The notes under the pieces: model-generated | The model's database searches: none | Seen by the model: only the letters and a program-made list of their open reading frames with translations | Told to the model about the DNA's origin: nothing | Source of the DNA: Nitrospira sp. | Lineage (GTDB): Bacteria > Nitrospirota > Nitrospiria > Nitrospirales > Nitrospiraceae | Assembly (NCBI GenBank): GCA_029865225.1 | Contig: JAOUHJ010000015.1 | Coordinates: 1-55,645 of the forward strand | Direction: 5' to 3' | Length of the DNA stretch: 55,645 nt | Translations under genes and position numbers: made by a program | Part shown: positions 7,379 to 28,139 of the stretch, one piece after another | Layout of the letters: every line of letters starts with the position of its first letter | How positions within the stretch are numbered: the stretch's first letter is position 1

Positions 7379-7431
7379 GTGTCGAGTACGTCGCTGGTGG
7401 TCGCTGTGTAGTTATGGAGCATCGAGTGTGG

Positions 7432-9026: not shown

Positions 9027-9182
9027 GGGAACCGGTCCTGCTATACGAACCATCCGCATGACTGATCGAGGCAGAGATCATATGGTTGCGGACTGAGTGA
9101 TCCTGCTGATTTCCATGCAGGCCGTGCTAAATCTCGATCCTGATGATACTGTGGTCCCACGGTATTTCTTGGACAGCTACAG

Positions 9183-11431: not shown

Positions 11432-11469
11432 GAACGGATGACGCGGTCGTCCGATGGGTTGTTCGGTGC

Positions 11470-11499
11470 TTGCAAGGCGGGAGAGGCCATCCCTATAAT
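11470..11499 (+). promoter_or_regulatory. Sigma-70-type promoter of ndk
   Basis: TTGCAA at 11470-11475, an 18-base spacer, then TATAAT at 11494-11499. It lies 52 bases before the ndk start. Confidence 0.6.
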
Positions 11500-11551
11500 G
11501 TGCGCCGATTATCAATCGCTACCTTAACTGTCTGGAGGAGTCGTAGACATC

Positions 11552-11971: not shown

Positions 11972-12222
11972 GATGGGTTTCTAGGGCACTCGAACTCAGG
12001 GTCGTTTCTGACCAACCTAGACGGCGGAGGAGGGAGATGGTGTTGGTTCGCTCACGTCTCTCTGTCTAAGGCTCTTCAGGGGGTGGAACGGGTTCGTACG
12101 AGAGTGGTCGATGATCGTCGCTTTCATCTCGACCGGATCGTTCCTTGACAAGGTCAGTCTGGCCAAACTACCATCCCGATAAATCAGCACTCAACCGCAG
12201 TGTTCTTCAAGAGGGAGCCGAC

Positions 12223-12612
12223 ATGATTCCGTCCGATTTAAAATTCCATACCGAGCATGAGTGGGTTCGCCTGGAAGGGAAACGAGCCACTGTGGGTATC
12301 AGTGATTTTGCGCAGGATGCCTTAGGCGACATCGTATTCGTGGACCTGCCGAAGGTGGGCACAGCGGTCAAGGTCGGGCAGCAGATCGGAGAAGTTGAAT
12401 CGACGAAAACGACCTCGACCATCTATACACCGGTGAGTGGAACCGTCATCGAGATCAATAACGAGCTGAAGGACCATCCTGAAGTCATGAATTCAGACCC
12501 CTACGGCAAAGGCTGGATTACTGTGATCGATCTCGCCGATCCGGGCGACGTCGATCGATTAATGACGGCCGCGCAGTACGAAGCCTTCCTTGCCAGCCAG
12601 AAAAAAGGGTGA
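12223..12612 (+). CDS. gcvH: Glycine cleavage system H protein
   Basis: A 129-aa lipoyl carrier protein. The start at 12223 (MIPSDLKFHTEHEW) follows GAGGGAGCC; an in-frame upstream extension lacks family similarity. The lipoylated Lys is K62 in ESTKTTS. It shuttles the aminomethyl group between the P, T and L proteins. No other gcv genes lie nearby, so it may also act as a stand-alone lipoyl relay. Confidence 0.95.
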   Translation: MIPSDLKFHTEHEWVRLEGKRATVGISDFAQDALGDIVFVDLPKVGTAVKVGQQIGEVESTKTTSTIYTPVSGTVIEINNELKDHPEVMNSDPYGKGWITVIDLADPGDVDRLMTAAQYEAFLASQKKG

Positions 12613-12730
12613 TGTCTCGGTCAACGTCGAGTTTCGCAGTTGCCTGCCTCCCGATTCATTCAGCGCAACCTGCGCATCAAGCGGCTCCAGCGGGGAGGAT
12701 GGTTCACATAGTCCGAAGAAAGAGCGGGCA

Positions 12731-13174
12731 ATGGTGAAATCGTTCCTCTTCAAGGTGGGTCTGCTCGTTGTCGCGATGGGAGTCAGTTTTTGGGCGATTG
12801 CGGATGATCGGCCCAAGGCTCCCATTGCTGCGGTTATGGATGAGCCGTTAGCAGAGAGGCCACCTCGCCTTCCTGATTCCTCTCAGCAGACTCCGAAGAT
12901 TCACGAAGTTGTGAGCGGGACACGAGGGATCCAGCAGGACCAGCACCTGGTCGATCTCAATCAGGCAAGTGCTGAGGAACTTGAAGCGTTACCCGGTATC
13001 GGAGCAGTATTGGCCCAGCGAGTGATCGCTTTGCGGACATCAACGGGAGGCTTTCGTGCAGTCGAAGATCTCCGTGAGGTGAAGGGAATCGGAGCAAAGA
13101 AATTCAACCGTATTAAGTCCTTAGTGATGGTCTCGATATCCGGACCCCAAGGGACGAAACAGCGTGAACTATGA
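12731..13174 (+). CDS. Exported ComEA-like helix-hairpin-helix protein
   Basis: A 147-aa protein. The ATG at 12731 begins a signal sequence or anchor ([20 protein letters not shown]). Residues from about 78 form two helix-hairpin-helix motifs: [18 protein letters not shown] and [17 protein letters not shown]. ComEA-like domains bind DNA without sequence specificity outside the inner membrane, often for uptake or envelope repair. The stop overlaps the tyrS start by four bases (ATGA). No other competence genes are in the window. Confidence 0.82.
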
Positions 13175-14379
13175 GAGACGTTCAAGCACAACTGGATCTC
13201 ATCCTCCGTGGTGCCGTCGAGGTGATTCAACAGGCGGAGCTGGAAGCGAAGCTCAAGCGGTCGCTTGCGGAGAAGCGGCCGTTACGCGTCAAGGCAGGGT
13301 TTGATCCGACTGCGCCTGATCTGCATCTCGGACATACGGTCCTGATCCATAAACTGAAGCATTTTCAGGATCTCGGCCATCAGGTCATTTTTCTGATCGG
13401 AGATTTTACCGGCATGATCGGCGACCCCACCGGCGTCTCCGAAACCAGGAAAGCTCTGACCAAGGAACAGGTGCAGGACAACGCCAAGACCTATCAACGC
13501 CAGATCTTCAAGATTCTCGATCCCGAGAAGACTACGATAGAATTCAACAGCCGGTGGATGGGACCCATGACTGCCGATGGGCTGATTGAATTGGCTGCGC
13601 ACTATCGAGTTGCGCGCATGATGGAACGGGACGATTTCCAGAAACGCTACCAAGAGCAGAAGCCCATCAGCGTGCACGAATTTCTGTATCCGCTCGTGCA
13701 AGGCTATGATTCGGTCGCCTTGAAGGCGGATGTCGAGCTAGGGGGAACCGACCAGAAATTTAATCTCCTGGTGGGGCGTGAGTTACAGCGAGACTATGGT
13801 CAGGAGCCGCAAGTCGTCATCACCATGCCGTTGCTGGAAGGAACCGACGGCGTCAAGAAGATGAGCAAGAGCGTCGGTAATTACATTGCGCTGGAAGACA
13901 AGCCTGGAGAGATGTTCGGGAAAGTCATGTCGATCAGCGACACGCTCATGTATCGGTACTATGAATTGCTGACGACGGAAGATCTTGGTCGTGTCAAAGC
14001 TCTCCATCCCATGGAGGCGAAACAGACTCTCGCCGAACTCATTGTGGCGCAATATCACGGAGCGGATGCTGGCAAACAGGCAAAAGCTGAGTTTCAGCAG
14101 AAATTTCAAGAACGAGAATTTCCAGATGAGCCGGATGTTCGATTGCGCCTGACCCAGCAAGATTTGCGGGACGGGCAGGCCATTGGTTTGGTGGATCTTG
14201 TCGCCAAAACGGGTTTGGTTCCCAGCAAGAGCGAAGCACGTCGACTGATCGTTCAGGGCGGGATCGAACTCGACGGACAAAAGCAGCAGGATGCCAATGC
14301 GCTACTCGCTCTTGTCGAGGGGAGGCAATACCGTCTCAAGATCGGTCGACGTAAGTTTGCGACCGTGGAGCGAGCCTGA
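13171..14379 (+). CDS. tyrS: Tyrosyl-tRNA synthetase
   Basis: A 402-aa class Ic aminoacyl-tRNA synthetase charging tRNA-Tyr. The HIGH-type motif is HLGH at 52-55, KMSKS is exact at 230-234, and the C-terminus is an S4-like RNA-binding domain ([20 protein letters not shown]). Length and motif order fit the TyrRZ-type subgroup common in environmental bacteria. It overlaps the ComEA-like gene by ATGA and is followed by tRNA-Gly. Confidence 0.97.
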
Positions 14380-14392
14380 AGGTGTCTGTTCC

Positions 14393-14422
14393 TTGACTTG
14401 TTCTCGATTTCACGCGTAGGAT
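14393..14422 (+). promoter_or_regulatory. Promoter of tRNA-Gly
   Basis: TTGACT at 14393-14398, an 18-base spacer, then TAGGAT at 14417-14422, 13 bases before the mature tRNA. It lies just after the tyrS stop. Confidence 0.55.
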
Positions 14423-14434
14423 GCATCCCTGTGA

Positions 14435-14509
14435 GCGGGCGTAGCTCAGTGGTAGAGTCCTAGCTTCCCAAGCTAGTTGTCGTGGGTTCAAATCCCATCG
14501 CCCGCTCCA
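14435..14509 (+). tRNA. tRNA-Gly (anticodon CCC)
   Basis: A full cloverleaf. The acceptor is GCGGGCG/CGCCCGC, the D arm is GCTCAGTGGTAGAGT, and the anticodon stem CTAGC/GCTAG encloses loop TTCCCAA (anticodon CCC). The T arm is GTGGG-TTCAAAT-CCCAT, and CCA is genomically encoded at 14507-14509. Its 3' part is the attachment site of the adjacent mobile element, and integration has left the tRNA intact. Confidence 0.97.
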
Positions 14510-14510
14510 A
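14463..14510 (+). repeat. attL: 48-bp direct repeat within tRNA-Gly
   Basis: Runs from the anticodon loop through the encoded CCA plus one base. It is identical to 28092-28139, and identity breaks on both sides. Confidence 0.92.
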
Positions 14511-15684
14511 TCTTTTCAGCCACTTCCGTAACGTTTCCCTTCCTCTCAGATTCCCCTATCACGGTTTTCGTCACGGTTCCGTTGGAAATCGGGGCTTCTT
14601 CCGCCTTGGCTTGGCGGGGCTCTGGACTGGTCGGAGCAGCCTTGCCAAAGCTGGCCACGGTTTCAACGGCGGCTTTCAGGTGGGTGGGGGAGAGATGCGC
14701 ATAGCGCCGGACGAGTCCGGTTGTGCTATGCCGCAGCAAGGCAGCAATGGTGCCTTCACCCTGGCCGCTCATGGCCAACCGAGAGGCAAAGGTATGCCGC
14801 AAGGTATGCCAGGTCACTCCCTCCAGCTTGAGGGCTTGCACTGCCGGAACAAAGACCCGCGTGTAGAAGTTCCGTTGATCCAGCTGCGTAGCCGGATTTT
14901 CGGAAGGAAAGACCCATGTCGACCGTTGCCACGAATCAAACTCTCTCAAGATCGCCTTCGCTTCTTCGTTCAGGTGGACATACTGCACATGACCGGCCTT
15001 CGTGTGGGGCAATGTCAGAATACCCCGTTCCAAATCCACATCAGCCCATTTCAGGTTGAATTGCTCGCCAAGACGCAACCCTGTAAGAACAGCCAAGCGC
15101 ATCCACGCCCCGTAGAGAGTTCCAAGTTTCTTAACCAAGGCGGCTTCTTCCTCTTGCGTCAAGAACCGGGTCTTTCCCGTGGCCACTCTTGGCAATTTGA
15201 CATGCGTGAAGGGGTTCTTCTCCATTTTTCCATCACGTACCGCCTTATTCATGATGTGCCGCAAGAACTTCATGTAATGCATTACGGTTTGAGGGGCCAG
15301 GCCTTCAGCCATCAATTCCCGTTGTGCTTGCTCCAAGAGGGGAGGTGTTACGGCGTTGAGCCGCTTGCCTCTGAGCCGGTCCTTCCACCACTGGCCATAG
15401 TGCTTTTCGGCAGACTGATTCTTGACCGTCGAAACATTCACATGGGCGGCAATCAGTTCTTCCACCAGCGAATAGCCGCCGTGCTGATAGCGTTCGGGAA
15501 AGAATCGACCTTCCTTCTGTTCCAGCTTGGCCTTCTCGTAAAATTCTCGTGCCTTCGTCTTGTTGGGGAAACTACCGAATCGCCGATCTCGGCCTTCGTG
15601 ATAGAGGCGGACATACCATACGGGTTTTCCGGTCGAGTCAGGCTTACTCAACAAGCCCCGATCTTTTCGCCCTGCTCGCGCCAT
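14488..15684 (-). CDS. Site-specific tyrosine recombinase (integrase)
   Basis: A 398-aa phage-type integrase. GGAGG precedes the ATG at 15684. The N-terminal arm-binding domain (about 20-75) and the core-binding SAM-like domain (about 80-180) precede the catalytic domain. Catalytic residues are Arg in LTGLRLGE, HTLRHTFAS (His-x-x-Arg), a further His in LLRHST, and the nucleophile Tyr in RRYAHLSP. The gene points into tRNA-Gly. Its last codons (about GAGDGI plus stop) are the antisense of the tRNA T-arm and acceptor inside the 48-bp att core. It should catalyse integration and, with the AlpA-like protein, excision. Confidence 0.95.
   Translation of the reverse strand: MARAGRKDRGLLSKPDSTGKPVWYVRLYHEGRDRRFGSFPNKTKAREFYEKAKLEQKEGRFFPERYQHGGYSLVEELIAAHVNVSTVKNQSAEKHYGQWWKDRLRGKRLNAVTPPLLEQAQRELMAEGLAPQTVMHYMKFLRHIMNKAVRDGKMEKNPFTHVKLPRVATGKTRFLTQEEEAALVKKLGTLYGAWMRLAVLTGLRLGEQFNLKWADVDLERGILTLPHTKAGHVQYVHLNEEAKAILREFDSWQRSTWVFPSENPATQLDQRNFYTRVFVPAVQALKLEGVTWHTLRHTFASRLAMSGQGEGTIAALLRHSTTGLVRRYAHLSPTHLKAAVETVASFGKAAPTSPEPRQAKAEEAPISNGTVTKTVIGESERKGNVTEVAEKIGAGDGI
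14559..14578 (+). repeat. Candidate integrase arm-type sites, left end
   Basis: Two direct copies of TCACGGTT at 14559-14566 and 14571-14578, inside the integrase 3' coding region. The same octamer occurs near the right end at 27946 and, as TCACGGTG, at 27969. Role as arm-binding sites is inferred from position. Confidence 0.4.
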
Positions 15685-15687
15685 CGC

Positions 15688-15843
15688 TCAGCCTCCTTTC
15701 CGACTCACTATCGGAGCCTGTTTGAAATGATCTTCCAGCAAATGCCGAATAAATCCGCTGGCCGTTGTGCCTTCCTGTCTCAAGGCATCCAGCCGCGCCT
15801 TGATCGGTTCCGGCACCTGAATCAACAACCGCACCATCTTCAT
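15688..15843 (-). CDS. Ribbon-helix-helix (CopG-like) small protein, 51 aa
   Basis: Start MKMVRLLIQVPEPIKARLDAL, preceded by GAGAGGGGG. The N-terminal strand followed by two helices (EPIKARLDALRQ and ASGFIRHLLEDHF) fits a ribbon-helix-helix DNA-binding dimer. It ends 3 bases before the integrase start, so both are probably one transcript. The upstream palindrome at 15876-15891 is a plausible autoregulatory operator. Confidence 0.7.
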   Translation of the reverse strand: MKMVRLLIQVPEPIKARLDALRQEGTTASGFIRHLLEDHFKQAPIVSRKGG

Positions 15844-15875
15844 AGAATCACCCCCTCTCAGCGTATTATAAGCTT

Positions 15876-15891
15876 ACTATCATCTGATAGT
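15876..15891. promoter_or_regulatory. 16-bp palindromic operator candidate
   Basis: ACTATCA-TC-TGATAGT is a perfect 7-bp inverted repeat in the promoter region of the RHH-integrase operon. On the minus strand it lies between TTCACT and TATAAT (15865-15870, 18-base spacer), so a bound repressor would block RNA polymerase. A second TTGACA lies at 15898-15903. The palindrome is seen; operator function is inferred. Confidence 0.5.
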
Positions 15892-15950
15892 GAACCATGT
15901 CAACTGCTATTTGACGCATTCTCAGGAAGAGTGCTAGGCTTCTGCCCTGT

Positions 15951-16136
15951 ATGGCACGAGACACACCAGAAGGCACCGGCGCGTGGAACTTCCGCGACAT
16001 TCCCCGTGATCTTATGCGGAAGGTCAAAATGGCGGCAGCACATGAAGGGAAGAGTGTGAAAGACTTCTTGATTGAACTGGCTGAGGTAAGAATTCAGGAA
16101 CTAGAGCGGAAGGGGATCTTGCCCAAGGGAAAGTGA
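15951..16136 (+). CDS. Arc/FitA-like ribbon-helix-helix protein, 61 aa
   Basis: A 61-aa protein whose DIPRDLMRKVKMAAAHEGKS segment fits the Arc/CopG strand-helix pattern (NFRDIP strand). It is a likely DNA-binding regulator or antitoxin-like protein, but no toxin gene follows. It is divergent from the other RHH gene, about 110 bases apart. TTGACG (15912-15917) then TAGGCT, 18 bases on, is a possible promoter. That would give a very short leader, and no Shine-Dalgarno site is seen. Confidence 0.6.
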   Translation: MARDTPEGTGAWNFRDIPRDLMRKVKMAAAHEGKSVKDFLIELAEVRIQELERKGILPKGK

Positions 16137-16288
16137 CCGTGCGAGAGGTGGTTCATGTGTGGTCATGGCCTTGTCAACGGCCTTCTATATGGATGGTTGA
16201 TAAAACGATCCGAGATCTACTCAGGAAGTACCCCAAAAAGTAGCCCGCCCTATGTCGACACCCTGTCCTCCGATAGCGATGTCGCTTC

Positions 16289-16675
16289 TTACACCGTGCC
16301 CCCGCAGGTTCTATCGATAATCACGGTAACTTTCTCGTCTTTCAGGTCGACGCGCTGCCGTTCAATATAGCCCCGGCAATGACCCTGGGTGACTAGATAG
16401 AATTTCACGGCCCAGCTCTCCCCGGCGTCGATGGCTTCCTGTAGTTTCAATTCAGCCACGTCCAGCATAAGTTCACGCTCACCGGCTACCACGTTCTCGA
16501 TTTCTGGATGTCGGTCTATAGCGTTGTAGATCGTTTGCCGGGTACAGCCAAGCAGGCGGGCGGCTGTCGCGATCATGCCCCGTGAGGCCCTGAGCGCCTT
16601 CATGATCTTATCCGGGGAGTACTTCTCGGTGGTGAAGGACTGTCTATTCTGTAAACTGCCGTTAGGGTCATTCAC
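16289..16675 (-). CDS. Fis-type helix-turn-helix element protein
   Basis: A 128-aa protein. I chose the GTG at 16675 because GAGGAG lies eight bases upstream; an ATG at 16765 would extend it through an inverted-repeat region. The helix-turn-helix is ATAARLLGCTRQTIYNAI, followed by a helical stretch (LMLDVAELKLQEAIDAG) and AVKFYLVTQGHCRGYIERQ. That last pattern resembles terminase-small-subunit-like and Fis-type phage proteins. It is downstream of the DUF3987 gene on the same strand. Function in packaging or replication control is possible but unproven. Confidence 0.65.
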   Translation of the reverse strand: MNDPNGSLQNRQSFTTEKYSPDKIMKALRASRGMIATAARLLGCTRQTIYNAIDRHPEIENVVAGERELMLDVAELKLQEAIDAGESWAVKFYLVTQGHCRGYIERQRVDLKDEKVTVIIDRTCGGTV

Positions 16676-16689
16676 GGGTTCTCTCCTCT

Positions 16690-16752
16690 GCGAAATAAGC
16701 GAGAAAAGCGAAATAAGGGCAGGCCTTTGTTCGCTTAATTCGCTTTTTTCGC
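16690..16752. repeat. Iteron-like 9-nt repeats in inverted arrangement
   Basis: Three tandem 9-mers close to GCGAAATAA (16690-16716) face three inverted copies (16726-16752). This gives an imperfect 23-bp inverted repeat (19/23) with a 17-base centre. It spans the DUF3987 stop codon and ends next to the Shine-Dalgarno site of the downstream gene. It could be a replication-protein binding site or an mRNA hairpin. Confidence 0.55.
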
Positions 16753-18114
16753 ACCTGCACGCCACACAATCCGTGGTCGTCCATCCGTCTCAATCGTTAC
16801 ACAATACGCAAGCCCTGCCTGCTCCAGGATGCCTTTGGCTCGCTCTAGCTCCGCTGCCGACTTGTGCCGTCTAAATAAGTCGGACAGTTCGCTGTCTGTT
16901 CGTTCGCCGTTCGACCGTATCGCCCTGAGTATGGTATCGGCGGTAGGATCGCCGAGCGAGTCTCCGAAAATCATGCGAGTCGAGGCTTCCGCATACTGCC
17001 AGAGGGCCAATGCCGCCTTGAGGTGAACAAGATCAATGACGCTCTCCGCATCCAGGACAGCATAGAGGCCAGAGAGTCGCATCACTTGGGCCTCTGCGCG
17101 TCCGAGTAGGGCGCCCGCCATACCAGGATGGTCAGACGAAAGATCGTGGTAGGACTCGGCCCACAATTCACGAGCAGCGGGTGAAAGGGTCAATTCACCA
17201 CAGGTACGAGCGATCGGCAGAACATATCCAACCTCTCTAGTTAGGGCTGCCAGCTCTGATTCAGCGGGCACACTTGAAAACGGTAATTCTTTCGACCGTC
17301 GCACGGCAAACCAGACAAACCGATTGCCGAAACCGTTGACAGTTTCCGTATCTGCCAGATTTCGCAAGAGTTCGTCTTGTGTCACATGCGCCACAATGCC
17401 GATATGCGGATCTGTAGCGCGTACCCGGTTCGCTTTCGTCATCGGAGCCAGCGTCAGACCGTCCCAGGCATCACGGAGGACACCGGAGAGGGAATTGCCT
17501 TCCCGCGCCATGATCTTCAGCACCGCTCCGAATTCACTTTGCACGAGAAAGAGCCGTTTATCTTCTACCCCGCTGTCCGTACAAATTGTCTGCATCTCTC
17601 CTGTTGGTTTCCCGCCCTGCTTCAGCGGCTCTTCTTTGAATTGGGCATCCCGTACCGCAAAGGCCAACCCTTCACCGCTTGAGAGCGTCCCCTTATATTC
17701 GCCACGCGTCCACGAGTCATCGGCCAGGCTCAAGAGTCTTTCAATACGTCGGCCCGCCGTGCCTTTTCGACTCTTGGAGGATTGCCCAACCAGCACTGGC
17801 CAAAAGAGCAGCGGATGATAACTGCCGTCTAAAATGAGGTGTGGTCCCCTATTCAGCATGGCACCAATCTCTGAGAGAAACGACAGGAGTAAGGCGATCG
17901 GGTCGGCTTCCGTATGGGGTTCGATCAGTCGGACGACTTCACCTGCCAGACCGTGAAGGGCAGCTCCCTGAAGTTTCGGCCAGGGGCTATCGATCTGAGG
18001 CGCAGGAGGAATGCCGCCCTCGCTATAAATCTTCAGAGAAACCTGCTTGGGGCGAGGGACATCACTGTAGCCCTGAGGATAAAGGGCGGCGAGAGTTTCT
18101 TCAGCGATTGACAT
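16735..18114 (-). CDS. DUF3987 (primase/helicase-like) protein
   Basis: A 459-aa protein. The start MSIAEETLAAL at 18114 follows GGGAGG; a longer frame from 18153 is less likely. The DUF3987 core includes a P-loop-like VGQSSKSRKGTAGRRIERLL region, and the C-terminus has a winged-helix-like tail. Such proteins occur in phages, satellites and integrative elements beside AlpA-like regulators and are thought to act in replication of the excised form. Enzymatic activity is inferred only. It overlaps the small upstream gene by 14 bases. Confidence 0.78.
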   Translation of the reverse strand: MSIAEETLAALYPQGYSDVPRPKQVSLKIYSEGGIPPAPQIDSPWPKLQGAALHGLAGEVVRLIEPHTEADPIALLLSFLSEIGAMLNRGPHLILDGSYHPLLFWPVLVGQSSKSRKGTAGRRIERLLSLADDSWTRGEYKGTLSSGEGLAFAVRDAQFKEEPLKQGGKPTGEMQTICTDSGVEDKRLFLVQSEFGAVLKIMAREGNSLSGVLRDAWDGLTLAPMTKANRVRATDPHIGIVAHVTQDELLRNLADTETVNGFGNRFVWFAVRRSKELPFSSVPAESELAALTREVGYVLPIARTCGELTLSPAARELWAESYHDLSSDHPGMAGALLGRAEAQVMRLSGLYAVLDAESVIDLVHLKAALALWQYAEASTRMIFGDSLGDPTADTILRAIRSNGERTDSELSDLFRRHKSAAELERAKGILEQAGLAYCVTIETDGRPRIVWRAGAKKAN

Positions 18115-18319
18115 GGTTGAGAGCCTCCCGTATGCAGCCGATTCGGTCCACAAGCCAATAGTGGGGCCGCTCTTCCATCAAGAGACGGTGGTGTGCACGC
18201 TCATATTCCCGTCGTAACTCCAATGCGCTCATCCTCTGAAGATCTTCATGGAAATATCTTTCATCGAATGGCCCATTGACCGGGATTGGATACATCGCAT
18301 CGAGAATGGTCACGGTCAT
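18101..18319 (-). CDS. Hypothetical element protein, 72 aa
   Basis: Start at 18319 overlaps the stop of the AlpA-like gene (ATGA), with AAGGTG six bases upstream. Its end overlaps the DUF3987 start. The protein is charged and helical (LRREYERAHHRLLMEE), with no recognised domain. The tight coupling on both sides is the main support. Confidence 0.6.
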   Translation of the reverse strand: MTVTILDAMYPIPVNGPFDERYFHEDLQRMSALELRREYERAHHRLLMEERPHYWLVDRIGCIREALNHVNR

Positions 18320-18516
18320 GGCTTCACCTTCGCTTGTGCCAATGCCTTGAGGGCGTCTCGAACTTCAGCGAGGTCAAACCGCCGCCCTCGTAACCGAGGA
18401 CCTGCCGCGTACGACGGGATGAGTCCGGCTTGAGCCAGACGGTAAATGCTTGATTTGGCCTGCCCGAGATATTTCGCGATGGTCACAGCATCGACGAGCT
18501 GTCCAACATTACCCAT
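18316..18516 (-). CDS. AlpA/Xis-like helix-turn-helix excisionase
   Basis: A 66-aa MerR-type winged-helix protein. GGAGG precedes the ATG. The pattern TIAKYLGQAKSSIYRLAQAGLIPS then GRRFDLAEVRDAL is typical of AlpA-like prophage regulators and excisionases. It probably bends DNA at the att sites or activates integrase and replication genes. It is the first gene of the replication operon. Confidence 0.78.
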   Translation of the reverse strand: MGNVGQLVDAVTIAKYLGQAKSSIYRLAQAGLIPSYAAGPRLRGRRFDLAEVRDALKALAQAKVKP

Positions 18517-18654: not shown

Positions 18655-19287
18655 CTATGAACTATGACGTGGTCGTCCCCGCCTTCTTAGCTCGGGGTGT
18701 GGATCAATTTCTTTAAGCCAGTCTCGTAACGTGTGCCGTCCTGTGTATCTTCTTTTGTAAATCCGCATCTCTGGTGCTCGCTCAATCGCTGCTATAGAAA
18801 GGGAAGAGTCTTTCCCCCAGAGCTCGCGTCCTATCGCTTGCACCTCGCGCTTCTCGGCGTAATCACCTCGGTTCCGGGATGCTACTCGAGATCTATACCC
18901 GCTTACTGCATCCTTCCCAGACAATTTCTCCACGCCTTGTTCTGGTCCCAGCTGAACTGCCTTGTAGATACGAACGAGAAAATCCAGGGCATCATCGTAG
19001 GGCTTGTTGTCCCTAAGAAGAGCCAAGCCTATCCTGGCATACTTACGTGCAATGAGGTAATCGAAGCGCTCGCGAATCTCCTCGTAGTGCCCCTGCTGTT
19101 TCTCAACGAGGAAGAAAAGGCTTATGCGTGCCCTATTAAACTCTCCCATAACTGGCTCAGAAATCCAGCTTGGTGGGCGTCCCTTAATGCCATCGTAAGG
19201 CGCTTGTTCCCATTCCAGCAGCTCTGGGAGCCACGGCGGTGCGTTTGTGGGCGGTAGAGCACGAGCTGGTGGTCGTTTCTTCGGCAT
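18655..19287 (-). CDS. Hypothetical element protein, 210 aa
   Basis: AGGAGGG precedes the ATG at 19287. The product begins with a basic Pro-rich segment, has a helical middle (EEIRERFDYLIARKYARIGLALL) and ends in a very basic tail (LRRRGRPRHSS). It may bind DNA or RNA. No family is recognised. It lies upstream of the AlpA-like gene on the same strand, with about 140 bases between. Confidence 0.6.
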   Translation of the reverse strand: MPKKRPPARALPPTNAPPWLPELLEWEQAPYDGIKGRPPSWISEPVMGEFNRARISLFFLVEKQQGHYEEIRERFDYLIARKYARIGLALLRDNKPYDDALDFLVRIYKAVQLGPEQGVEKLSGKDAVSGYRSRVASRNRGDYAEKREVQAIGRELWGKDSSLSIAAIERAPEMRIYKRRYTGRHTLRDWLKEIDPHPELRRRGRPRHSS

Positions 19288-19655: not shown

Positions 19656-20903
19656 ATGATGGCACAACTATTTTTCTATGCACTTCTCGTTCAACTCACG
19701 ATGCTTTTGCCATCCGCTTTGGTATTAGCTCAGGACCTGACGTCGGCCACATCGACCAGCGCAAGCGATGAAGGTTATGCCAATGGTCTGCGCCAGGTCC
19801 CCGACGCTTCGCTTCTTCGTAGGCTCTCCCCAGTTTTTCAGAATCTTGAAAAAGACTTAATCCTAAAGAGCACTCGAGGCGAGAAAGAGCAGAGGCTTTT
19901 CCGTGAATGCGCACCTGCAGTTGTCTTAGTTTTGACGAAAGACAGTTTGGGCAGTGGGGTCATTATCGATAAATCGGGGCACGTTATTACGAACCATCAT
20001 GTGGTTGGACCAAATTCGACCGTGGCAGTAGTCTTTAAGCCTCGCAATGGGGAGGACTTGACAAAGGATCTTGCCCGAAGAGCGACGGTAGAAAAGGTCG
20101 ATGAGATAGCAGATTTAGCCTTATTGAAGATTGACACCCCTCCGCAAGCACTTTCCAGCTTGCCGTTAGGCAACGCCGGTATCTTGGAAGTTGGCACAGA
20201 CGTTCACTCTATCGGGCACCCAGAAGGGGAAATCTGGACCTATACGCGAGGCACAATAAGCGCTATCAGAAAGAACTATGAGACAACAATTGAGGGTAAG
20301 GTATTTCGGGCCAATGTCATTCAACATCAAACCCCAACCAACCCGGGTAATTCAGGTGGACCGCTCTTAAGTGATTCCTGCGCCGTCGTGGGAATTAACA
20401 CATTCGTGAAGGGCCGAGAAGGACTCAACTTTGCTGTATCGGTTGACACGGTTCGTCGTTTTCTGGATGCGCCAAAGTCGAATCTGGCTCCAGCGCCGGT
20501 ACAACCTCAGCCGAATTGCCCCAAGAACGAACAATATGACTTAGTCCGATTTGGATGGGGCATGATCGCGGGGTGTTACGTTGAGAAGAGTGGAGCACCG
20601 CCAAATTGGTGGATAAGTCGGCCAAACCCAAATGATGAACCGTACAGCGCTGTCGACTTGGATCACAATGGGTGGCTTGAGACAGCCATGATCAAAAACG
20701 AAGATGGTGGCTACCTCTGGGCGTTTGATAATGACTGTGATGGATTTGTGGACGCAGTCGGCTACCAGTCAGAAGGGAGTGCTGATATTCAAAGCTATTC
20801 CCAACCACGACAGAGGATTTCTTTAAGAGAAGTGGTCTCACAGATTGACTACGCGCTGAAAGCAAAGGCTATTCCACATCCAACATTGCGCGTGTGCCAG
20901 TGA
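19656..20903 (+). CDS. Exported trypsin/HtrA-like serine protease with C-terminal Ca-binding-like motifs
   Basis: A 415-aa protein. GAGGAGGG precedes the ATG at 19656, which starts a signal peptide (about residues 1-26, ending VLAQ). The protease domain spans about 86-270. His115 lies in TNHHVV, Asp153 in IADLALLK and Ser233 in NPGNSGGP, a complete S1C-type triad. No PDZ domain follows, unlike DegP. Instead residues 325-375 carry two EF-hand-like loops (DLDHNGWLE and DNDCDGFVD). It should act in the periplasm or outside. The CHAT gene follows after 3 bases, so the two form an operon. It is cargo of the mobile element. Confidence 0.9.
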   Translation: MMAQLFFYALLVQLTMLLPSALVLAQDLTSATSTSASDEGYANGLRQVPDASLLRRLSPVFQNLEKDLILKSTRGEKEQRLFRECAPAVVLVLTKDSLGSGVIIDKSGHVITNHHVVGPNSTVAVVFKPRNGEDLTKDLARRATVEKVDEIADLALLKIDTPPQALSSLPLGNAGILEVGTDVHSIGHPEGEIWTYTRGTISAIRKNYETTIEGKVFRANVIQHQTPTNPGNSGGPLLSDSCAVVGINTFVKGREGLNFAVSVDTVRRFLDAPKSNLAPAPVQPQPNCPKNEQYDLVRFGWGMIAGCYVEKSGAPPNWWISRPNPNDEPYSAVDLDHNGWLETAMIKNEDGGYLWAFDNDCDGFVDAVGYQSEGSADIQSYSQPRQRISLREVVSQIDYALKAKAIPHPTLRVCQ

Positions 20904-20906
20904 ATT

Positions 20907-23900
20907 ATGCGGCGTGGAAGTAGATCGGTTTTCTGTCAGGGTTGCATCGATTTTTCTCATGTGGTGTTATTTACAGTCCTCGGCCTCCTCCCAGCAGGCT
21001 GTGCGTCTCCCCCAGACAGTCCCCCTCAAACTAATAGCTTGTCGTCGTTGCAGGCCTATCATGGCTATCTAGACGAAGGTGCCGCAGCCTTCCGACAACA
21101 AGACTATCAAAAAGCTAGAATCCTCTACGCCAAAGCCCTCGAAGAAGCACGTCGGGCAAATGATGCTGCTGCTATTGGAGGGGCTCTAGCTCGCCTTGGA
21201 GCAACATACGGTGCATTACAAGATCACACCAGGGCTCTAGATCTCATGCTTGAGGCCATACCGCACCTTCAGCGAATTAGGGATATCGGTTCGCAAGCAC
21301 AAGTCCACTGGGCGATTGGCGAAGTGTATTTAAGAACGGGCAAAGAGCGGGAGGCGCTTCCGCAATTTGAACAAAGTATACAGCTTGCAGATGTTCTATC
21401 TGAGAAAGCGACTCGTGCACAGGAACACGAGATTAAACGAAGCCTAGCTGCCATTTGGACTGAGAAAGGCCTGGCCCATGAGCGGATTGGCGAGTTTGCC
21501 AAATCGGTTGAGGCGCACTCAACAGCTTCGTCCTATTTCCAGCAGACTGAGCAGGAAAATGAAGCAGGTGAGGCGCTTTTACAAGCAGGGAGAGTGTCGG
21601 GTGTTGGTTTGAAAGACTATGTTGCAGCTACCGAGCTTTTTGCTCGTGCAGAAAGACTGTTAAATGAAGGGGGAGACAGGAACAGAGCAGCCCGTGCGGC
21701 CTTGTGGCGAGGCGAAGCATTGAGTTCCCTTGGTAGACACGATGAGGCCAAAAAGGCATTTGAGAGAACCGCATATTCGGACGTCCAAGGTCTACCTCCA
21801 GAAATTCCAGCTGAAGCAGGATGGAGATTAGGTCAGAATCTTGAAGGACGTGGTCAATTCAAAGAAGCGCTCGTAAGTTACCAAGCAGCCCTTAAACACG
21901 CAAAAGCGATTCCGCAAACCTCCCACCCTAGCTCCGGTGCCCACCTCAGACCAGCCATCCTCTTGTCTCGAGGCCTTCTACTCCTCCATCTCGCTCACTA
22001 CGACGATGCAACAAGTGATTTACTAGCTGCAGCTGCTATCTCCAAGTTCATGGGGAATCGGGAAGGGGAGGCTCTCGCTCTAGCGTCGCTGGGAGAAGTT
22101 GCCCGCTGGACCGCCGATTTTCAAGCCGGACACTCTTATTACGCAAAGGCTTTGGCGATTTATCGGGAACAGGGAGCAGTCCTCAAGCAGGTCAATGCCT
22201 TGTCCAATCTCATTGAATTCGGGTTTAGAGGCGGGGCTGCTTCACGCGATACAGAGGATTACATTCAACAGGGACTAGCCCTCCTCCAACAATACCAGAA
22301 TCCACTAGCATCGAAAGAAATCGGTGAGCAACTATATGCGACGAAGATCTCCTTTCTAGAGAACCAAGAGAACGTACAGAAGGTGAAGGACATTCTTGAA
22401 AGGGAGAGCGAATGGTTAGCGAAGTGGCCGTATCCGAGCGCAGAGTTTCTTAATGCGTTTGGTCAAAATGAACTGCTAGTGGAAGAAATTCAGTTTTCTG
22501 AGGCCGAATGGCGAAAGCAGTTTCCATCCTTGTCCGCCGAGTACTTTCACACCGCTGGGAATTTCTATCAGCGAATAGGAATTGCGGTTTTGGTTTCATT
22601 GAACGATATTGCCACGGCCAATTTCTGGCTCACAGCTGCTTCGGTTTACCATTCAAGCGTCTTTTCATACCGAGAGGGATTATTCGAGTTAGCAAAGGAC
22701 TTCTATTACCTTGGAGAAGTCTGCCGTCGCAACAAAGACATGGCTCGTGCGCTCAATTATTTCTATCGCGCCCTCCTTCTCGGCTCAACGCTGAAATCTC
22801 CTGAGATTCACTGGGTACATATAGGGCTTGGAAGAACTTTTGCTGACCAGAATAATTTACATGCCGCTATCGATTGGTACTCTACGGGGTTAGGTGAATT
22901 TGAAAGGGTTCTTCGCCAATCAACCATTGAAGCAACAAGGAACGATGTCATCACTGGGGCACTTTATGCCTATCGCCCCCTCGCATCCCTTCTTCAAGAT
23001 CAGTACCGCCATACCCAGCAGATACATTACCAGCACGAAGCTTTTCAGGTTAATGAAACATTACGAGCGAGAGGTTTCCTAGACCTCTTAGCGAGGTCTC
23101 ATGCTGCTGCATTGGGAGGCGAATCCGAAACAGCTGAGAAGTTGAGACTTGAGATTGTGGGTCTCCAATACAAGCTGAAAAGTGCGAAGCTCGGAAGTGC
23201 GGATCATAGCGTGTTGGTTGATCGCCTCCAAGATCTTCGGAGCCGGTGGCTGGAGCAACAAGATGCAACAGCACAGCGTCATCCACGGGGCACCCAATTG
23301 TGGTCGTCTCCTCCTGTCAGCCTGTTAGACGTTCAACACGCCCTCGACCACGACACCGCGTTGCTGGAGTATATGGTCCAGGAGGACAAGCTGGTTATGT
23401 GGACGATCACAAAAATTCAGTTTGAAGTTTACGAGCAACCACTTGGGGATGGTGAGGCCATCTTGAGAAAATTCATGGGCACCCTTGGGCGCCCCTTATT
23501 GACGAAGGATGAGGCTGCAGAACACCTTACACTAGCCACTAGCGTCTATAGCAGACTCATTCAACCGGCTGAGGGTTTGATTCGCGGGAAGAAACACCTG
23601 ATTATCGTTCCAGACGGTCTTCTGCATTATCTTCCGTTTGAGGCATTAGTGATACCGACCGTCGGCGACAAAAGCGAGAGATCACGTGGTGGCCTTTCCG
23701 GTGCGCAATATCTCCTCAAACAATATCAGATTAGCTACGCACCCTCGGCTTCCGTAGCGATGGCATTGCAGAAGAGTGTTCGGTCAACTGATGAGAAACC
23801 ACCCTTTCCACTTGTGGCATTTGGCGATCCCGCTTATGAAGAAGTTTCCAGTGAAGAACATAGGTCAGGTGTATGCCAGGGAAGTTGGAGTCGCCTCGAA

Positions 23901-24500
23901 TTCTCAGCTGAGGAGGTCAACCGGATCGCGGCTCTGTGGGGCATCGCCTCAGACTCACCGCATATTAATTTGCGGGAACAGGCATCCGAAAAGCGGTTAC
24001 GCGAGATCGATCTTTCTCAGTATCGGCTTCTGCACTTTGCCACGCACGCATGTGTCCCAGATAAGTTTAGCGGTTCAGAACAACCCGCTTTGGTTCTTTC
24101 TGAAACAACGAGCGAAGGGACAACGAAGGATGGGCTCCTAACCTTTCGAGAAATCCTAGAACTAAAACTCAAGGCTGACCTGGTCGTCTTATCTGCGTGC
24201 AAGACCAACCTGGGAGAGTTCAAGTGGGGAGAAGGCCTTGTGGGGCTCTCACGTGCGTTCTTCTACGCGGGAGCCTCATCCCTCATAGTCAGTTTCTGGG
24301 ATGTGCAAGACCAATCGACGAGCCTCCTGATGGAAGACCTGTACAAGCGAATCAACCAAGGGGAGCGGCCTGCCGAGGCGCTGCGGCAGGCAAAGCTTGC
24401 ACTGATGAATTCCCGCATTCAGCTAAAGGCTACAGGCAAGGAAATGAGCCTCGAATCCCCATTCTTTTGGGCACCCTTTGTTTATATCGGTCCACTATAG
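20907..24500 (+). CDS. TPR-CHAT protease (caspase-like) with N-terminal export/lipoprotein signal
   Basis: A 1197-aa protein. The N-terminus is basic, then hydrophobic, ending LPAGC (Cys32), a near-lipobox with Pro at -3. Residues 50-700 are helical repeats of TPR type (for example AAAFRQQDYQKARILYAKAL). Residues about 790-1195 are a CHAT domain, a clan CD Cys protease fold like caspase and separase. Catalytic His1047 lies in HFATHA and Cys1098 in LSACKT, and the SPFFWAPFVYIG ending is typical. It has no Shine-Dalgarno site and starts 3 bases after the trypsin-like gene, so translation is probably coupled. The TPR part would sense a partner, and the CHAT part would cleave a target, perhaps its neighbour. 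Confidence 0.93.
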   Translation: MRRGSRSVFCQGCIDFSHVVLFTVLGLLPAGCASPPDSPPQTNSLSSLQAYHGYLDEGAAAFRQQDYQKARILYAKALEEARRANDAAAIGGALARLGATYGALQDHTRALDLMLEAIPHLQRIRDIGSQAQVHWAIGEVYLRTGKEREALPQFEQSIQLADVLSEKATRAQEHEIKRSLAAIWTEKGLAHERIGEFAKSVEAHSTASSYFQQTEQENEAGEALLQAGRVSGVGLKDYVAATELFARAERLLNEGGDRNRAARAALWRGEALSSLGRHDEAKKAFERTAYSDVQGLPPEIPAEAGWRLGQNLEGRGQFKEALVSYQAALKHAKAIPQTSHPSSGAHLRPAILLSRGLLLLHLAHYDDATSDLLAAAAISKFMGNREGEALALASLGEVARWTADFQAGHSYYAKALAIYREQGAVLKQVNALSNLIEFGFRGGAASRDTEDYIQQGLALLQQYQNPLASKEIGEQLYATKISFLENQENVQKVKDILERESEWLAKWPYPSAEFLNAFGQNELLVEEIQFSEAEWRKQFPSLSAEYFHTAGNFYQRIGIAVLVSLNDIATANFWLTAASVYHSSVFSYREGLFELAKDFYYLGEVCRRNKDMARALNYFYRALLLGSTLKSPEIHWVHIGLGRTFADQNNLHAAIDWYSTGLGEFERVLRQSTIEATRNDVITGALYAYRPLASLLQDQYRHTQQIHYQHEAFQVNETLRARGFLDLLARSHAAALGGESETAEKLRLEIVGLQYKLKSAKLGSADHSVLVDRLQDLRSRWLEQQDATAQRHPRGTQLWSSPPVSLLDVQHALDHDTALLEYMVQEDKLVMWTITKIQFEVYEQPLGDGEAILRKFMGTLGRPLLTKDEAAEHLTLATSVYSRLIQPAEGLIRGKKHLIIVPDGLLHYLPFEALVIPTVGDKSERSRGGLSGAQYLLKQYQISYAPSASVAMALQKSVRSTDEKPPFPLVAFGDPAYEEVSSEEHRSGVCQGSWSRLEFSAEEVNRIAALWGIASDSPHINLREQASEKRLREIDLSQYRLLHFATHACVPDKFSGSEQPALVLSETTSEGTTKDGLLTFREILELKLKADLVVLSACKTNLGEFKWGEGLVGLSRAFFYAGASSLIVSFWDVQDQSTSLLMEDLYKRINQGERPAEALRQAKLALMNSRIQLKATGKEMSLESPFFWAPFVYIGPL

Positions 24501-24706: not shown

Positions 24707-25051
24707 TCAACGCCTTCGAGGTGGTACTAGCCGCATGTCTCGGATAAGCCCGCCGAATGGATAGATCCTGGCATCTAGCCGGGTCTCCGTTCGAGACCAG
24801 TGATTTTCCGCTGCGGTGATACAGTACATGATGGCCTGTTGTCTGGCCTCTGCTTCGGTCGCTGGGGGGTAGCTATACCGAGAGCCGTAGCGGTACTCGA
24901 TGACCGTGGATAGCGTTGGATGAATCCCGAGGTACCTACCTTCTCGGCGGCTTCGGCTGATGCCATGTTGTACGAAGAGAATGACTTGATAGCCCAGGGC
25001 GGACCGGTCGTAGAACTGCATGTCCTTGTCATCCCAACTGAGCATAACCAA
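24707..25051 (-). CDS. Hypothetical protein, 114 aa
   Basis: The frame starts TTG at 25051, seven bases after GGAGG; an ATG two codons later is an alternative. The product has no signal peptide, several Tyr residues and a basic end (PPRRR). The stretch ATEAEARQQAIMYCITAAENHW suggests a helix. No family is recognised. It is convergent with the TPR-CHAT gene and divergent from the PilZ gene. About 200 bases between it and the CHAT stop hold nothing recognisable. Confidence 0.5.
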   Translation of the reverse strand: MVMLSWDDKDMQFYDRSALGYQVILFVQHGISRSRREGRYLGIHPTLSTVIEYRYGSRYSYPPATEAEARQQAIMYCITAAENHWSRTETRLDARIYPFGGLIRDMRLVPPRRR

Positions 25052-25193
25052 TGGTTACCCTCCTAGATACTAGGGTCAATATAATAGGACAACGTAAGAA
25101 ATAACAGCACCTAGGCCCCCGGCCACGAAGCCATGCCAGAGTAGGGTTGTGGTGTTCTTGACCGCCCCCCTACAATGCGTCTCCGTGGGGGGA

Positions 25194-25511
25194 ATGATGT
25201 TTATTATTCGGCCATACCGACGGTTTCCTGTCGCTTGTCCAGTCGCCTATGAACATTGCTTCCAGGAGGGACAGGGCACAGTGTGGAATGTCTCTAGTAC
25301 CGGCTGGCGGATGTCAGGCGATGTGCCGCTACAATGTGGTGATGTGTGTTCATTGAACGTGATACTACCAACGAACAAGCCGGTATCAGTGGCGGCCGGG
25401 ATAGTGCGATGGGTTAAGGGTGAGGAGTTTGGGATTGAAATCCTGGTCATGGACGGGAAGGCACAGACACATCTCGGGAAATACATCCAAGAGCGCATGA
25501 AAGACTTATGA
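25194..25511 (+). CDS. PilZ-domain protein
   Basis: A 105-aa single-domain protein. The start is ATG at 25194 after GGGGGGA. Both c-di-GMP-binding signatures are present: RxxxR as RPYRR near the N-terminus and NxSxxG as NVSSTG. Family members bind c-di-GMP and change a partner's activity. It overlaps the next gene by ATGA. An HD-GYP-type protein lies elsewhere in the window but outside the element. The target is unknown. Confidence 0.78.
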   Translation: MMFIIRPYRRFPVACPVAYEHCFQEGQGTVWNVSSTGWRMSGDVPLQCGDVCSLNVILPTNKPVSVAAGIVRWVKGEEFGIEILVMDGKAQTHLGKYIQERMKDL

Positions 25512-25861
25512 GTAGCGATCGCCCCAAACGTGAAACCATGTCCCTAGAGGAAGCCACGATCTCGAACATGTGGGAGATTGCCGCGATTGTGGAAGTGTTG
25601 GAGAAGAAGGGCCTCTGTACCAAGCAAGATCTGTATGACATCATCGCGGAGTTGCGCAAAAAGTCTCCACGTGCTCGTCTCCCTGAGACGGTGTTTCCTT
25701 CACCGTATCTCATGACACAGACCGAAGAGAAGGTCATTGACGATATTCTCGCCGCGCTGAACCAGCATGGGATGGACTCCAAGCAATCGTTAGATTTGTT
25801 GGAGCAGGTAGGCAGAATTATCGAGATGGGGGCAAAGATCACACGAGGTACGACACACTAA
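25508..25861 (+). CDS. Hypothetical protein coupled to PilZ gene
   Basis: A 117-aa soluble helical protein. Its ATG overlaps the PilZ stop (ATGA), so it is probably translated with it and may be its partner. The middle (VEVLEKKGLCTKQDLYDIIAEL) looks like a small helix-turn-helix or adaptor fold. No domain is assigned with confidence. Confidence 0.6.
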   Translation: MSSDRPKRETMSLEEATISNMWEIAAIVEVLEKKGLCTKQDLYDIIAELRKKSPRARLPETVFPSPYLMTQTEEKVIDDILAALNQHGMDSKQSLDLLEQVGRIIEMGAKITRGTTH

Positions 25862-25886: not shown

Positions 25887-26363
25887 GTGATCGTCGGAAG
25901 ATTCCTAGCCCTCCTGCTTCCCATCCTCTTCTTCACTCCTTGCGTAGAAGCCGCCTTCCCTTTCACGGGCAAAGTTGTTGCAGTCTTGGACGGCGATACC
26001 ATCGAAGTCTTACACAACGGCAAAGCTGAACGTATCCGCTTGAACGGAGTTGACTGCCCAGAGAAGAAACAAGCCTTCGGTCAGAAGGCAAAGCAATTTA
26101 CCTCTTCCCTGGTTTTTGGGAAGACCGTTGTTGTCGTGCCAATTGAGAAAGACCGATACAAGCGCATAGTCGGCGATGTGTTCCTACCCAACGGGGTGAA
26201 CGTGAGTTATGAACTGGTAAGAGCGGGCCTAGGGTGGTGGTATCGAAAATACTCAGAGGATGTCGTACTTGCTGTCTTGGAATTGGAGGCGCGATTAGAA
26301 AGGCGAGGATTATGGGTTGATCCCGCGCCAGTGCCACCGTGGGAGTGGAGAAAGCGCAAGTAA
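25887..26363 (+). CDS. Exported thermonuclease-like (SNase) nuclease
   Basis: A 158-aa protein starting GTG at 25887. A signal peptide (about 1-22) is followed by one staphylococcal-nuclease OB-fold. The motifs are VLDGDTIEV, RIRLNGVDCPE with the catalytic Arg and Glu, and KRIVGDV with the second Arg. It should cleave DNA and RNA outside the cytoplasm, with Ca. TATAAT lies only seven bases upstream of the start, so the transcript may be nearly leaderless or the promoter may drive something else. It lies in the same element as the protease pair. Confidence 0.88.
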   Translation: MIVGRFLALLLPILFFTPCVEAAFPFTGKVVAVLDGDTIEVLHNGKAERIRLNGVDCPEKKQAFGQKAKQFTSSLVFGKTVVVVPIEKDRYKRIVGDVFLPNGVNVSYELVRAGLGWWYRKYSEDVVLAVLELEARLERRGLWVDPAPVPPWEWRKRK

Positions 26364-26479: not shown

Positions 26480-26543
26480 CATTAACGGCCAAATTGAGGG
26501 GCGCGCCGCTTTTGGCGCGTCCCTCTCGAATGCAGAGTTAGGC
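26480..26543 (-). repeat. attC-like recombination site (integron cassette type)
   Basis: On the minus strand: GCCTAAC (R''), TCTGCATTCGAG, a GAGGGACGCGCC / GGCGCGCCCCTC stem, CAATTTGG, then GTTAATG (R'). The order and pairing match the aadA-type attC layout. R' deviates at one base from GTTRRRY. It lies 75 bases downstream of the lipoprotein gene in that gene's orientation, as in a gene cassette. Confidence 0.55.
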
Positions 26544-26617
26544 CAGAACTATAAGAAAGCCATGAACCGAATCCACCTGACCTATTCTTCTTAAAAAACA
26601 AGTCAAGCCCGGCGCCC

Positions 26618-27325
26618 TCAGTTTTTTGCCAGTTGGACGGCACACTTCTTCTGATGAGCATCGGCCAGCAGTCGCTTGCTAGAATCCGCTGCCGGTGTGC
26701 GCTCATCTTCCGTAGGTTGATCTATCGAGCTACTCACAACCAATAGCGCTCCCTTCGGCAGATAGATCATAAGCAGTGGCCTACCTCCCATCTCCGCTGA
26801 CACAACGCCAGCCGCTGCCTTGGCTTGATCCAAAGACCCGGGCGGTAGGCGAGAATAGAACAATCCAATTCGACCGATGTAAACACAATTTCCTTTAGGG
26901 ACGGTGAAACTCGGCCCACCAGTGGCCAGAAAAAACGGTTTATCCGAAAGGCTTGGAGCCCGTACGTCAAGTCCTTCCACAAGATAATCTCCAGCAGGCA
27001 GCACTAGCCTAAAGTTCTGAAAAGTTGCACCTACAACGGTCGGTCCTACAGTTAATAATTCCCAGACTGGGGTGCCGTCTGCGATGTGGTGTTTCACGTC
27101 GTGCCCACCTGCCAATGGCCTAATATGCAAAGTCAAGTCAATGGGCGGCTCTGGCAGCGAAGCGAGAACTGTGGGGCTAAACCCAATGATCATAGTACCA
27201 AGCACCTCCTGCGGTTGCGGTTCTTCAAGGTATTGTTGCCGTCGTTCTTGCGCCTGTTTCGTAGCAGTACATCCAATGATTGTTACCATAACAATCATCA
27301 AAATGACGGAAATATATCTTGTCAT
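26618..27325 (-). CDS. Lipoprotein of unknown function (putative cassette gene)
   Basis: A 235-aa protein with lipobox IIGC (Cys19) after a short signal. AGAGGG precedes the ATG. The body is beta-rich by appearance (VLPAGDYLVEGLDV, GNCVYIGRIGLFY), resembling small surface lipoproteins with an Ig-like fold. I do not recognise a family. It starts 28 bases after a GTTAGGC core on the minus strand and is followed by an attC-like hairpin, so it may be a single integron-type cassette. Confidence 0.65.
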   Translation of the reverse strand: MTRYISVILMIVMVTIIGCTATKQAQERRQQYLEEPQPQEVLGTMIIGFSPTVLASLPEPPIDLTLHIRPLAGGHDVKHHIADGTPVWELLTVGPTVVGATFQNFRLVLPAGDYLVEGLDVRAPSLSDKPFFLATGGPSFTVPKGNCVYIGRIGLFYSRLPPGSLDQAKAAAGVVSAEMGGRPLLMIYLPKGALLVVSSSIDQPTEDERTPAADSSKRLLADAHQKKCAVQLAKN

Positions 27326-27353
27326 CTCAAGAGCCCTCTGTTCGGCCTCGATC

Positions 27354-27519
27354 GCCTAACTATGTTTAGGCCGATCCGCATAGGAATCGGATCCGCCAAT
27401 TTCTGTCCGTGTAACGCGCTACGACTGTTCGCGAACAATACGCCATAACCGTTGCCGCTTCAATGAGTTGCGACTGGGCGACCATGCATCACGGATTCTT
27501 ATGCGGATCGGCGTAAGAC
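27354..27519 (-). repeat. Second attC-like structure with 25-bp inverted repeat
   Basis: On the minus strand, GTCTTAC and a 25-bp arm (27491-27515) pair with an arm at 27366-27390 (22/25), ending in GTTAGGC (27360-27354). The core GCCGATCCGCATA / TATGCGGATCGGC is a perfect 13-bp pair. It is about 166 bases long, beyond the usual attC range, so it is less certain than the site at 26480. Confidence 0.35.
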
Positions 27520-28091
27520 CCCTCCCTTGAGAAGGTCCCACTGCACACGCCTGCCAGTCTCCCCTGAACGTGCTTGGGTCGTACAGGAGAACCGCCTACC
27601 AGAGAACGGCCACGTTGAACGGCCGCTTTTCAATTCGGTGATCGACCGGTTTGGGTCGATACCTGCCGGTCATCGCGCATGTGTCCTGACACGACCTGCC
27701 TAATAAAACCCAAGTTCTTACAGCTGAAGCGCCGGAGTAGTTATCAGGTTTCCTTTTTCGAGGGGTTCCCTCTTCAAGCACGTTCGTTTTAGAAAGTCTC
27801 ACGTGGTTTACCGCCTGGCGCGATGCTTTCGATGCATCTATGGGACAGTAAGTGGAACGGGACTCCTGCCCACCCCCGCCAACCGAACAAAGCCCACCGG
27901 GGGTCTTCCTGCCATGATCAACAGAAAAAACATTTCCGGTTTCAGTCACGGTTCAGGTCCGAAAATGGTCACGGTGAGGGGATATCACAGGGGGATACAA
28001 GAAGCAACGGCAGGCCACAAACCCCTTGATAGGAGCGGGTCTGCCGTTGTATGGTGTGGCTTACTGTGAGCTGGCGTTTTTACCTAGATCC
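27520..28091. other. Non-coding right end of the element
   Basis: No gene is supported. It contains the ATCGACC/GGTCGAT inverted repeat near 27641-27660, candidate arm sites at 27946-27976, and a perfect 9-bp inverted repeat CAACGGCAG / CTGCCGTTG (28005-28013, 28041-28049) just before attR. Confidence 0.45.
27946..27976 (+). repeat. Candidate integrase arm-type sites, right end
   Basis: TCACGGTT at 27946-27953 and TCACGGTG at 27969-27976, in the same orientation as the pair at 14559-14578 near the left end. Function is inferred from this placement. Confidence 0.4.
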
Positions 28092-28139
28092 GCTTCCCAA
28101 GCTAGTTGTCGTGGGTTCAAATCCCATCGCCCGCTCCAA
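28092..28139 (+). repeat. attR: 48-bp copy of the tRNA-Gly 3' end
   Basis: Identical to 14463-14510 and includes the anticodon loop to CCA. It lacks the 5' half of a tRNA, so it is a displaced fragment, not a gene. Confidence 0.92.

Follow-up and report, generated by a model that had tools for sequence, protein, structure and literature searches.

A trypsin-like and a TPR-CHAT protease gene, both with predicted export signals, adjoin on a tRNA-Gly-integrated element of Nitrospira sp.

Results and Discussion

Organization of the element

The window (the whole analyzed stretch of 55,645 nucleotides from Nitrospira sp., genome G000) contains an element of 13.6 kb. Its two ends carry identical 48-bp direct repeats that correspond to the 3' end of a tRNA-Gly(CCC) gene. 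The features of the element are as follows.

14435–14509, plus strand: tRNA-Gly(CCC), the integration target (ARAGORN; Rfam RF00005)
14463–14510, no strand: attL, 48 bp within the tRNA 3' end, repeated perfectly and in direct orientation at 28092–28139
14488–15684, minus strand: tyrosine integrase (Phage_integrase 4.6e-24; PHROG integrase 1e-61), overlapping the tRNA end
16289–16765, minus strand: Fis-type HTH protein (HTH_8 4e-7)
16735–18153, minus strand: primase/helicase-like (DUF3987-type) backbone protein (weak PHROG DNA primase matches; homologue in sibling element L105, 1.4e-205)
18316–18516, minus strand: AlpA/excisionase-type HTH protein, 66 aa (assigned by eye, no model score)
18655–19287, minus strand: backbone protein of unknown function, 210 aa (weak homologue in sibling L101, 1.3e-4)
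19656–20903, plus strand: predicted exported S1C trypsin-like protease (Trypsin_2 1.3e-27 and triad; C-terminal domain with DLDHNG and DNDCDG loops; no PDZ)
20907–24500, plus strand: predicted exported (probable lipoprotein) TPR-CHAT protease, 1197 aa (CHAT 2.3e-64, TPR_12 1.8e-24, His1047/Cys1098)
24707–25051, minus strand: 114-aa protein of unknown function (60% identical homologue beside the trypsin gene of sibling L099)
25149–25511, plus strand: PilZ-domain protein (1.5e-8)
25508–25861, plus strand: 117-aa protein (no Pfam or PHROG match)
25887–26363, plus strand: exported SNase-like thermonuclease (SNase 5.9e-24; homologues in L099 and in the remnant L050)
26618–27325, minus strand: probable lipoprotein, 235 aa (N-terminus IIGCTATKQ; no family match)
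27937–28139, no strand: conserved right end of the element family (74–82% identity), including attR at 28092–28139

An empty site was found in genome G067, where the TyrRS gene, the tRNA-Gly(CCC) gene and the gene lying downstream of the window's element are all contiguous; the same arrangement (TyrRS, tRNA and right-hand gene) is present in G084, G312 and G425. With tRNA 3'-end repeats, an integrase and an empty site in four relatives, the locus has every hallmark of a tRNA-targeting integrative element, as the original prediction had proposed. Neither terminase nor capsid genes (terS, capsid-modifying) were seen among the genes scanned in the element, and the host genome contains no HK97-type capsid gene.

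Two repeats in the window may be recorded here. An inverted repeat of about 150 bp (window 27353–27520; arms 27366–27388 and 27494–27516) is matched over 168 bp in L103 (84% identity) and is a possible MITE. At 3395–3519 a 33-bp unit is repeated in tandem (3.8 copies). A candidate integron attC near 26480–26545 was considered and dropped.

The trypsin-like protein

The gene most likely starts at the ATG at 19656, which follows a strong Shine-Dalgarno sequence (AGAGGAGGGCG). Its product comprises a chymotrypsin-fold protease domain with the His/Asp/Ser triad of S1C peptidases. The triad residues are His115, Asp153 and Ser233 when counted from this start, exactly as predicted, and His125, Asp163 and Ser243 when counted from an upstream ATG at 19626. 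The N-terminus, MMAQLFFYALLVQLTMLLPSALVLAQ, resembles a signal peptide as judged by eye.

The best NCBIfam matches of the protein are to Do/HtrA. Pfam gives no match to PDZ, the canonical C-terminal domain of HtrA, in contrast to the DegP at locus L146, which has two. The last ~125 residues form a C-terminal domain (CTD) that contains the two D-x-D loops and has no family assignment. An AlphaFold2 model calculated from a two-row alignment was unusable (pLDDT 43).

The TPR-CHAT protein and the protease pair

The CHAT domain occupies residues 876–1195 of the second protein, which also has matches to TPR repeats. Both residues of the catalytic dyad named in the prediction were located, His1047 in the motif HFATHA and Cys1098 in LSACKT; TPR array and dyad together make this a TPR-CHAT protease. 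The hydrophobic N-terminus ends in LPAGC, which makes a lipoprotein probable, with a proline at position -3 that is atypical for a lipobox. A single-sequence AlphaFold2 model was unusable here as well (pLDDT 38).

The trypsin gene lies upstream, and its stop codon is separated from the TPR-CHAT start by the predicted gap of 3 bp. Export of both proteins, likewise part of the prediction, was judged from the sequences by eye and with a hydrophobicity scan, the signal of the second protein being a probable lipoprotein signal. The two adjoining genes on this mobile element encode proteases with intact catalytic residues that are probably exported.

None of the PADLOC 2.0 models recognizes the pair as a defense system; partial matches to trypsin, TPR and SNase domains were the sole result. 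No MoxR or STAND NTPase, vWA, VMAP or effector-associated Pfam domain was detected among the larger genes of the element, in a search that short EADs lacking Pfam models may escape.

Sibling elements in Nitrospiraceae

Integrases of the same clade (60–83% identity) are found at tRNA genes for Gly, Arg, Pro and Thr in other Nitrospiraceae. Both ends could be located in seven siblings with lengths of 6.8–16.7 kb, and the right ends of L101, L105, L108, L111 and L050 are 74–82% identical to that of the window element. The shared backbone consists of the integrase, small HTH proteins and the primase-like protein. With an integrase, an AlpA-type HTH protein and a primase, and with capsid and small terminase genes in the sibling L106, the family looks satellite-like. 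L106 itself (G012:C1:2789000-2808900, 124–9534) encodes an HK97-type major capsid protein, a small terminase subunit and a primase and is likely a capsid-carrying phage satellite in Nitrospiraceae.

For a count of cargo genes we used eight siblings that had been chosen by their integrase alone (~91 kb in total). Two of them carry predicted exported trypsins of other types. In the tRNA-Pro element L108 (G425:C58:1300-21200, 1951–4056) an exported WG-repeat protein is fused to Trypsin_2. In the tRNA-Gly(CCC) element L099 (G368:C17:72900-92800, 7944–14350), the right end of which was not found, genes for a lipoprotein and an SNase come after that of an exported trypsin with a coiled coil and TPR; the candidate defense gene HEC-08/DUF3644 lies near the trypsin gene, and a DUF72 protein is encoded in this element as well. 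Neither trypsin has a CHAT partner within its element. About 0.2 S1C genes would be expected in a sample of this size (~2 S1C genes per Mb), so that the observed two of eight correspond to a Poisson p of ~0.016, a post hoc value from small numbers. The enrichment of trypsins among the siblings is suggestive.

The remaining cargo is diverse. L113 (G042:C16:66600-86500, 2358–16538) carries a restriction-like defense set of an Eco57I-type methylase, an HKD/SNF2 helicase, a SEC-C protein and an SLFN_AlbA protein, and L101 a multicopper oxidase. L050 (G099:C10:41501-57851, 5488–12614) is a decayed element between tRNA-Arg(CCT) repeats with remnants of SNase and trypsin genes; it retains the 5' part of the window's trypsin gene with 88% DNA identity, disrupted by insertion sequences. 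As a separate observation, the non-backbone cargo of L101, L108, L109, L111 and the window element is mostly exported or lipoprotein in appearance.

The proposal of a mobile defense system was borne out in part: the pair lies on a mobile element, and the siblings L099 and L113 carry candidate or known-type defense genes, whereas no defense model covers the pair itself.

A second pair in Nitrospira sp. UBA5699

The CTD was found in two of 396 Nitrospirota genomes, namely that of the window and that of Nitrospira sp. UBA5699 (G040). No further clear case was found among the 175 genomes of the family; a weak match in G434 (E 0.003) contains an internal stop and was not counted. The UBA5699 protein is a full-length homologue including the CTD (30% identity) and is encoded by the one other intact CTD-trypsin gene found. 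The next gene downstream, on the same strand, encodes an exported TPR-CHAT protein. The surrounding operon (L049, also L066; G040:C70:4501-23592, 2635–14651) encodes exported proteins, with a CHASE2 protein further upstream, then a C14 caspase, the trypsin-CTD protein and the TPR-CHAT protein.

This pair adjoins glnE, and no integrase was seen within 19 kb. Of the two intact CTD-trypsin/TPR-CHAT pairs known, the one in UBA5699 lies on no recognized element. A restriction of such pairs to fixed housekeeping loci, which would have spoken against the original prediction, was not observed: the UBA5699 pair sits beside glnE, yet it occurs in one of the 396 genomes.

The CHAT proteins of the two pairs belong to different lineages, and a tree grouping them was rejected (AU test, p = 1.5e-6, with long branches in the tree). 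The two trypsin domains group weakly (88/51). The combination of one trypsin subfamily with two different CHAT lineages favors a functional link over mere co-inheritance, on the basis of two cases, and the pairing of trypsin and TPR-CHAT therefore looks functional from these sequences.

Beyond Nitrospirota, the coverage consisted of plasmid and phage collections. The plasmids gave HtrA-type or unlinked CHAT matches only, with a trypsin neighbor at none of the four plasmid CHAT loci checked by annotation, and the phage records gave HtrA-type matches only. When viral contigs were scanned by sequence pattern, neither the CTD nor the full trypsin gave a match, and a broad scan of genome contigs by the same approach yielded UBA5699 as the sole match; this type of scan is insensitive.

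CHAT loci across Nitrospirota

We surveyed the neighborhoods (~9 kb) of a further 74 Nitrospirota CHAT loci (L049-L063, L118-L177). An S1C gene is present at two of them, UBA5699 and L146, which is about the number expected by chance. L146 was rejected as a pair, since its trypsin, 3.5 kb from the CHAT gene, is a divergently transcribed DegP of the housekeeping type. The expectation that the pair would recur in other genomes is thus confirmed by one homologous pair, whereas a general co-occurrence of the two genes is not seen. A C14 caspase gene lies within the same distance at 11 of the 74 loci as compared to ~1 by chance, if three caspase genes per genome are assumed as in the window's genome.

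Export had been regarded as the unusual property of the pair. However, a strong hydrophobic segment at the N-terminus is seen in 62 of the 72 Nitrospirota CHAT proteins that exceed 700 aa, so export is usual for CHAT proteins in this phylum. The unusual features are the trypsin-CTD partner, itself exported, and the mobile element.

Proposed role of the protease pair

Based on the genes, catalytic residues, adjacency, mobility and recurrence observed, we propose a mechanism of which the location, the order of activation, the target and the benefit are inferred steps. Once both proteases had been exported across the inner membrane, the TPR-CHAT lipoprotein would bind a client or signal via its TPR array and make limited cuts. 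The S1C protease with its DxD-loop CTD would act as the effector, either released or activated by the TPR-CHAT protein or cutting alongside it. Carriage of the pair would give the host and the element an advantage over phages or competitors.

The element family repeatedly joins an exported trypsin to a differing recognition-type module (CTD and TPR-CHAT in the window, fused TPR in L099, WG repeats in L108), which makes envelope surveillance the simplest role. The trypsin/TPR-CHAT pair accordingly looks, from its gene context, like exchangeable cargo with a function at the cell envelope, and a role in defense is plausible. Our preferred reading, held tentatively and at somewhat less than even chances, is that of a satellite-like, tRNA-targeting element whose cargo, an envelope protease operon of two genes, performs envelope surveillance and helps the host, probably against phages or competitors. 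A wider version, in which a whole family of such elements uses exported trypsins as periplasmic effectors with exchanged recognition modules (TPR-CHAT, fused TPR, WG) for envelope immunity or superinfection exclusion, appears doubtful to us.

A strong rival, albeit a somewhat unlikely one, is accessory quality control, where both proteases break down or trim damaged proteins of the envelope and are carried as fitness cargo with no role in conflict. DegP and DegS, both S1C proteases, are textbook examples of proteases for envelope stress, and the Do/HtrA family matches of the trypsin as well as exported non-defense cargo in siblings, e.g. the multicopper oxidase, are in line with such a function. 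The absence of PDZ speaks against it, and so does the presence of ordinary HtrA genes in the host genome; the TPR-CHAT partner, along with the caspase and CHASE2 proteins in UBA5699, rather suggests signaled, limited proteolysis. The two genes could also be independent cargo from separate pathways that adjoin by chance. The chance-level frequency of S1C genes near CHAT loci is compatible with this, as are the trypsins of L099 and L108 without a CHAT partner, but both intact CTD-trypsin genes lie directly upstream of a TPR-CHAT gene on the same strand in spite of differing CHAT lineages, and we regard a coincidence as improbable.

Lastly, the satellite itself might be the beneficiary: in the periplasm, the proteases would cleave phage proteins or receptor proteins and so cause superinfection exclusion, and the host would gain no general immunity. 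Satellites commonly encode phage interference (PMC6092414), and the small size and satellite-like backbone (integrase, AlpA-type HTH, primase) would fit, as would the major capsid and small terminase genes of L106. Against it, terminase and capsid genes were not seen in the window element, nor an HK97-type capsid gene in its host. We consider this interference with a helper phage quite improbable.

If envelope surveillance is the correct reading, the mobile exported pair and the chromosomal caspase-trypsin-CHAT operon would place a proteolytic relay of the caspase/trypsin type in the envelope, the site of phage entry and competitor attack. The trypsin-like and CHAT proteases of the conflict systems taken for comparison are cytoplasmic, and protease-based immunity or superinfection exclusion located in the envelope would be unlike the cytoplasmic systems of trypsin and CHAT described so far. 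The data also point to a satellite-like element family that has predicted exported proteases among its cargo and occurs in Nitrospiraceae, whose members are important in nitrification.

Comparison with known systems

Among the closest known systems is the UBA5699 operon, which shares the homologous CTD-trypsin just upstream of an exported TPR-CHAT protein on the same strand. It differs from the window in the extra proteins that it encodes, among them an exported C14 caspase and a CHASE2 protein, in its CHAT lineage and in its position beside glnE.

Csx29 of Craspase (type III-E) likewise combines TPR with a CHAT domain containing a His/Cys dyad. In Craspase the CHAT protease is allosterically controlled and makes a single cut (PMC10028731), which provides a mechanistic model for limited proteolysis. 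Csx29 acts on Csx30 in the cytoplasm, whereas the window protein is predicted to be exported and has an S1C partner. Identity with Craspase was rejected, as the window's genome has no RAMP protein (gRAMP/Cas7-11; PF03787 absent).

VMAP ternary, EAD-trypsin and iSTAND systems also tie a trypsin-like peptidase effector to variable recognition modules (PMC8195603, PMC10907252). They work with NTPase switches and with adaptor domains; no such component was found adjoining the window pair, and the pair is predicted to be exported. HtrA, DegP and DegS share the S1C protease domain, the triad and export with the window trypsin, which differs by the missing PDZ domain, by an unrelated CTD with DxD loops and by sharing an operon with a TPR-CHAT gene within a mobile element.

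The element as a whole resembles PICIs (PMC6092414), with an integrase at one end, a putative AlpA-type regulator, a primase-like protein, a size of ~15 kb, a specific att site and accessory genes near an end. Integrase and size fit, the primase matches are weak and the AlpA-type protein was assigned by eye. Unlike PICIs, the window element has no terS among the genes scanned, targets a tRNA gene and resides in Nitrospirota.
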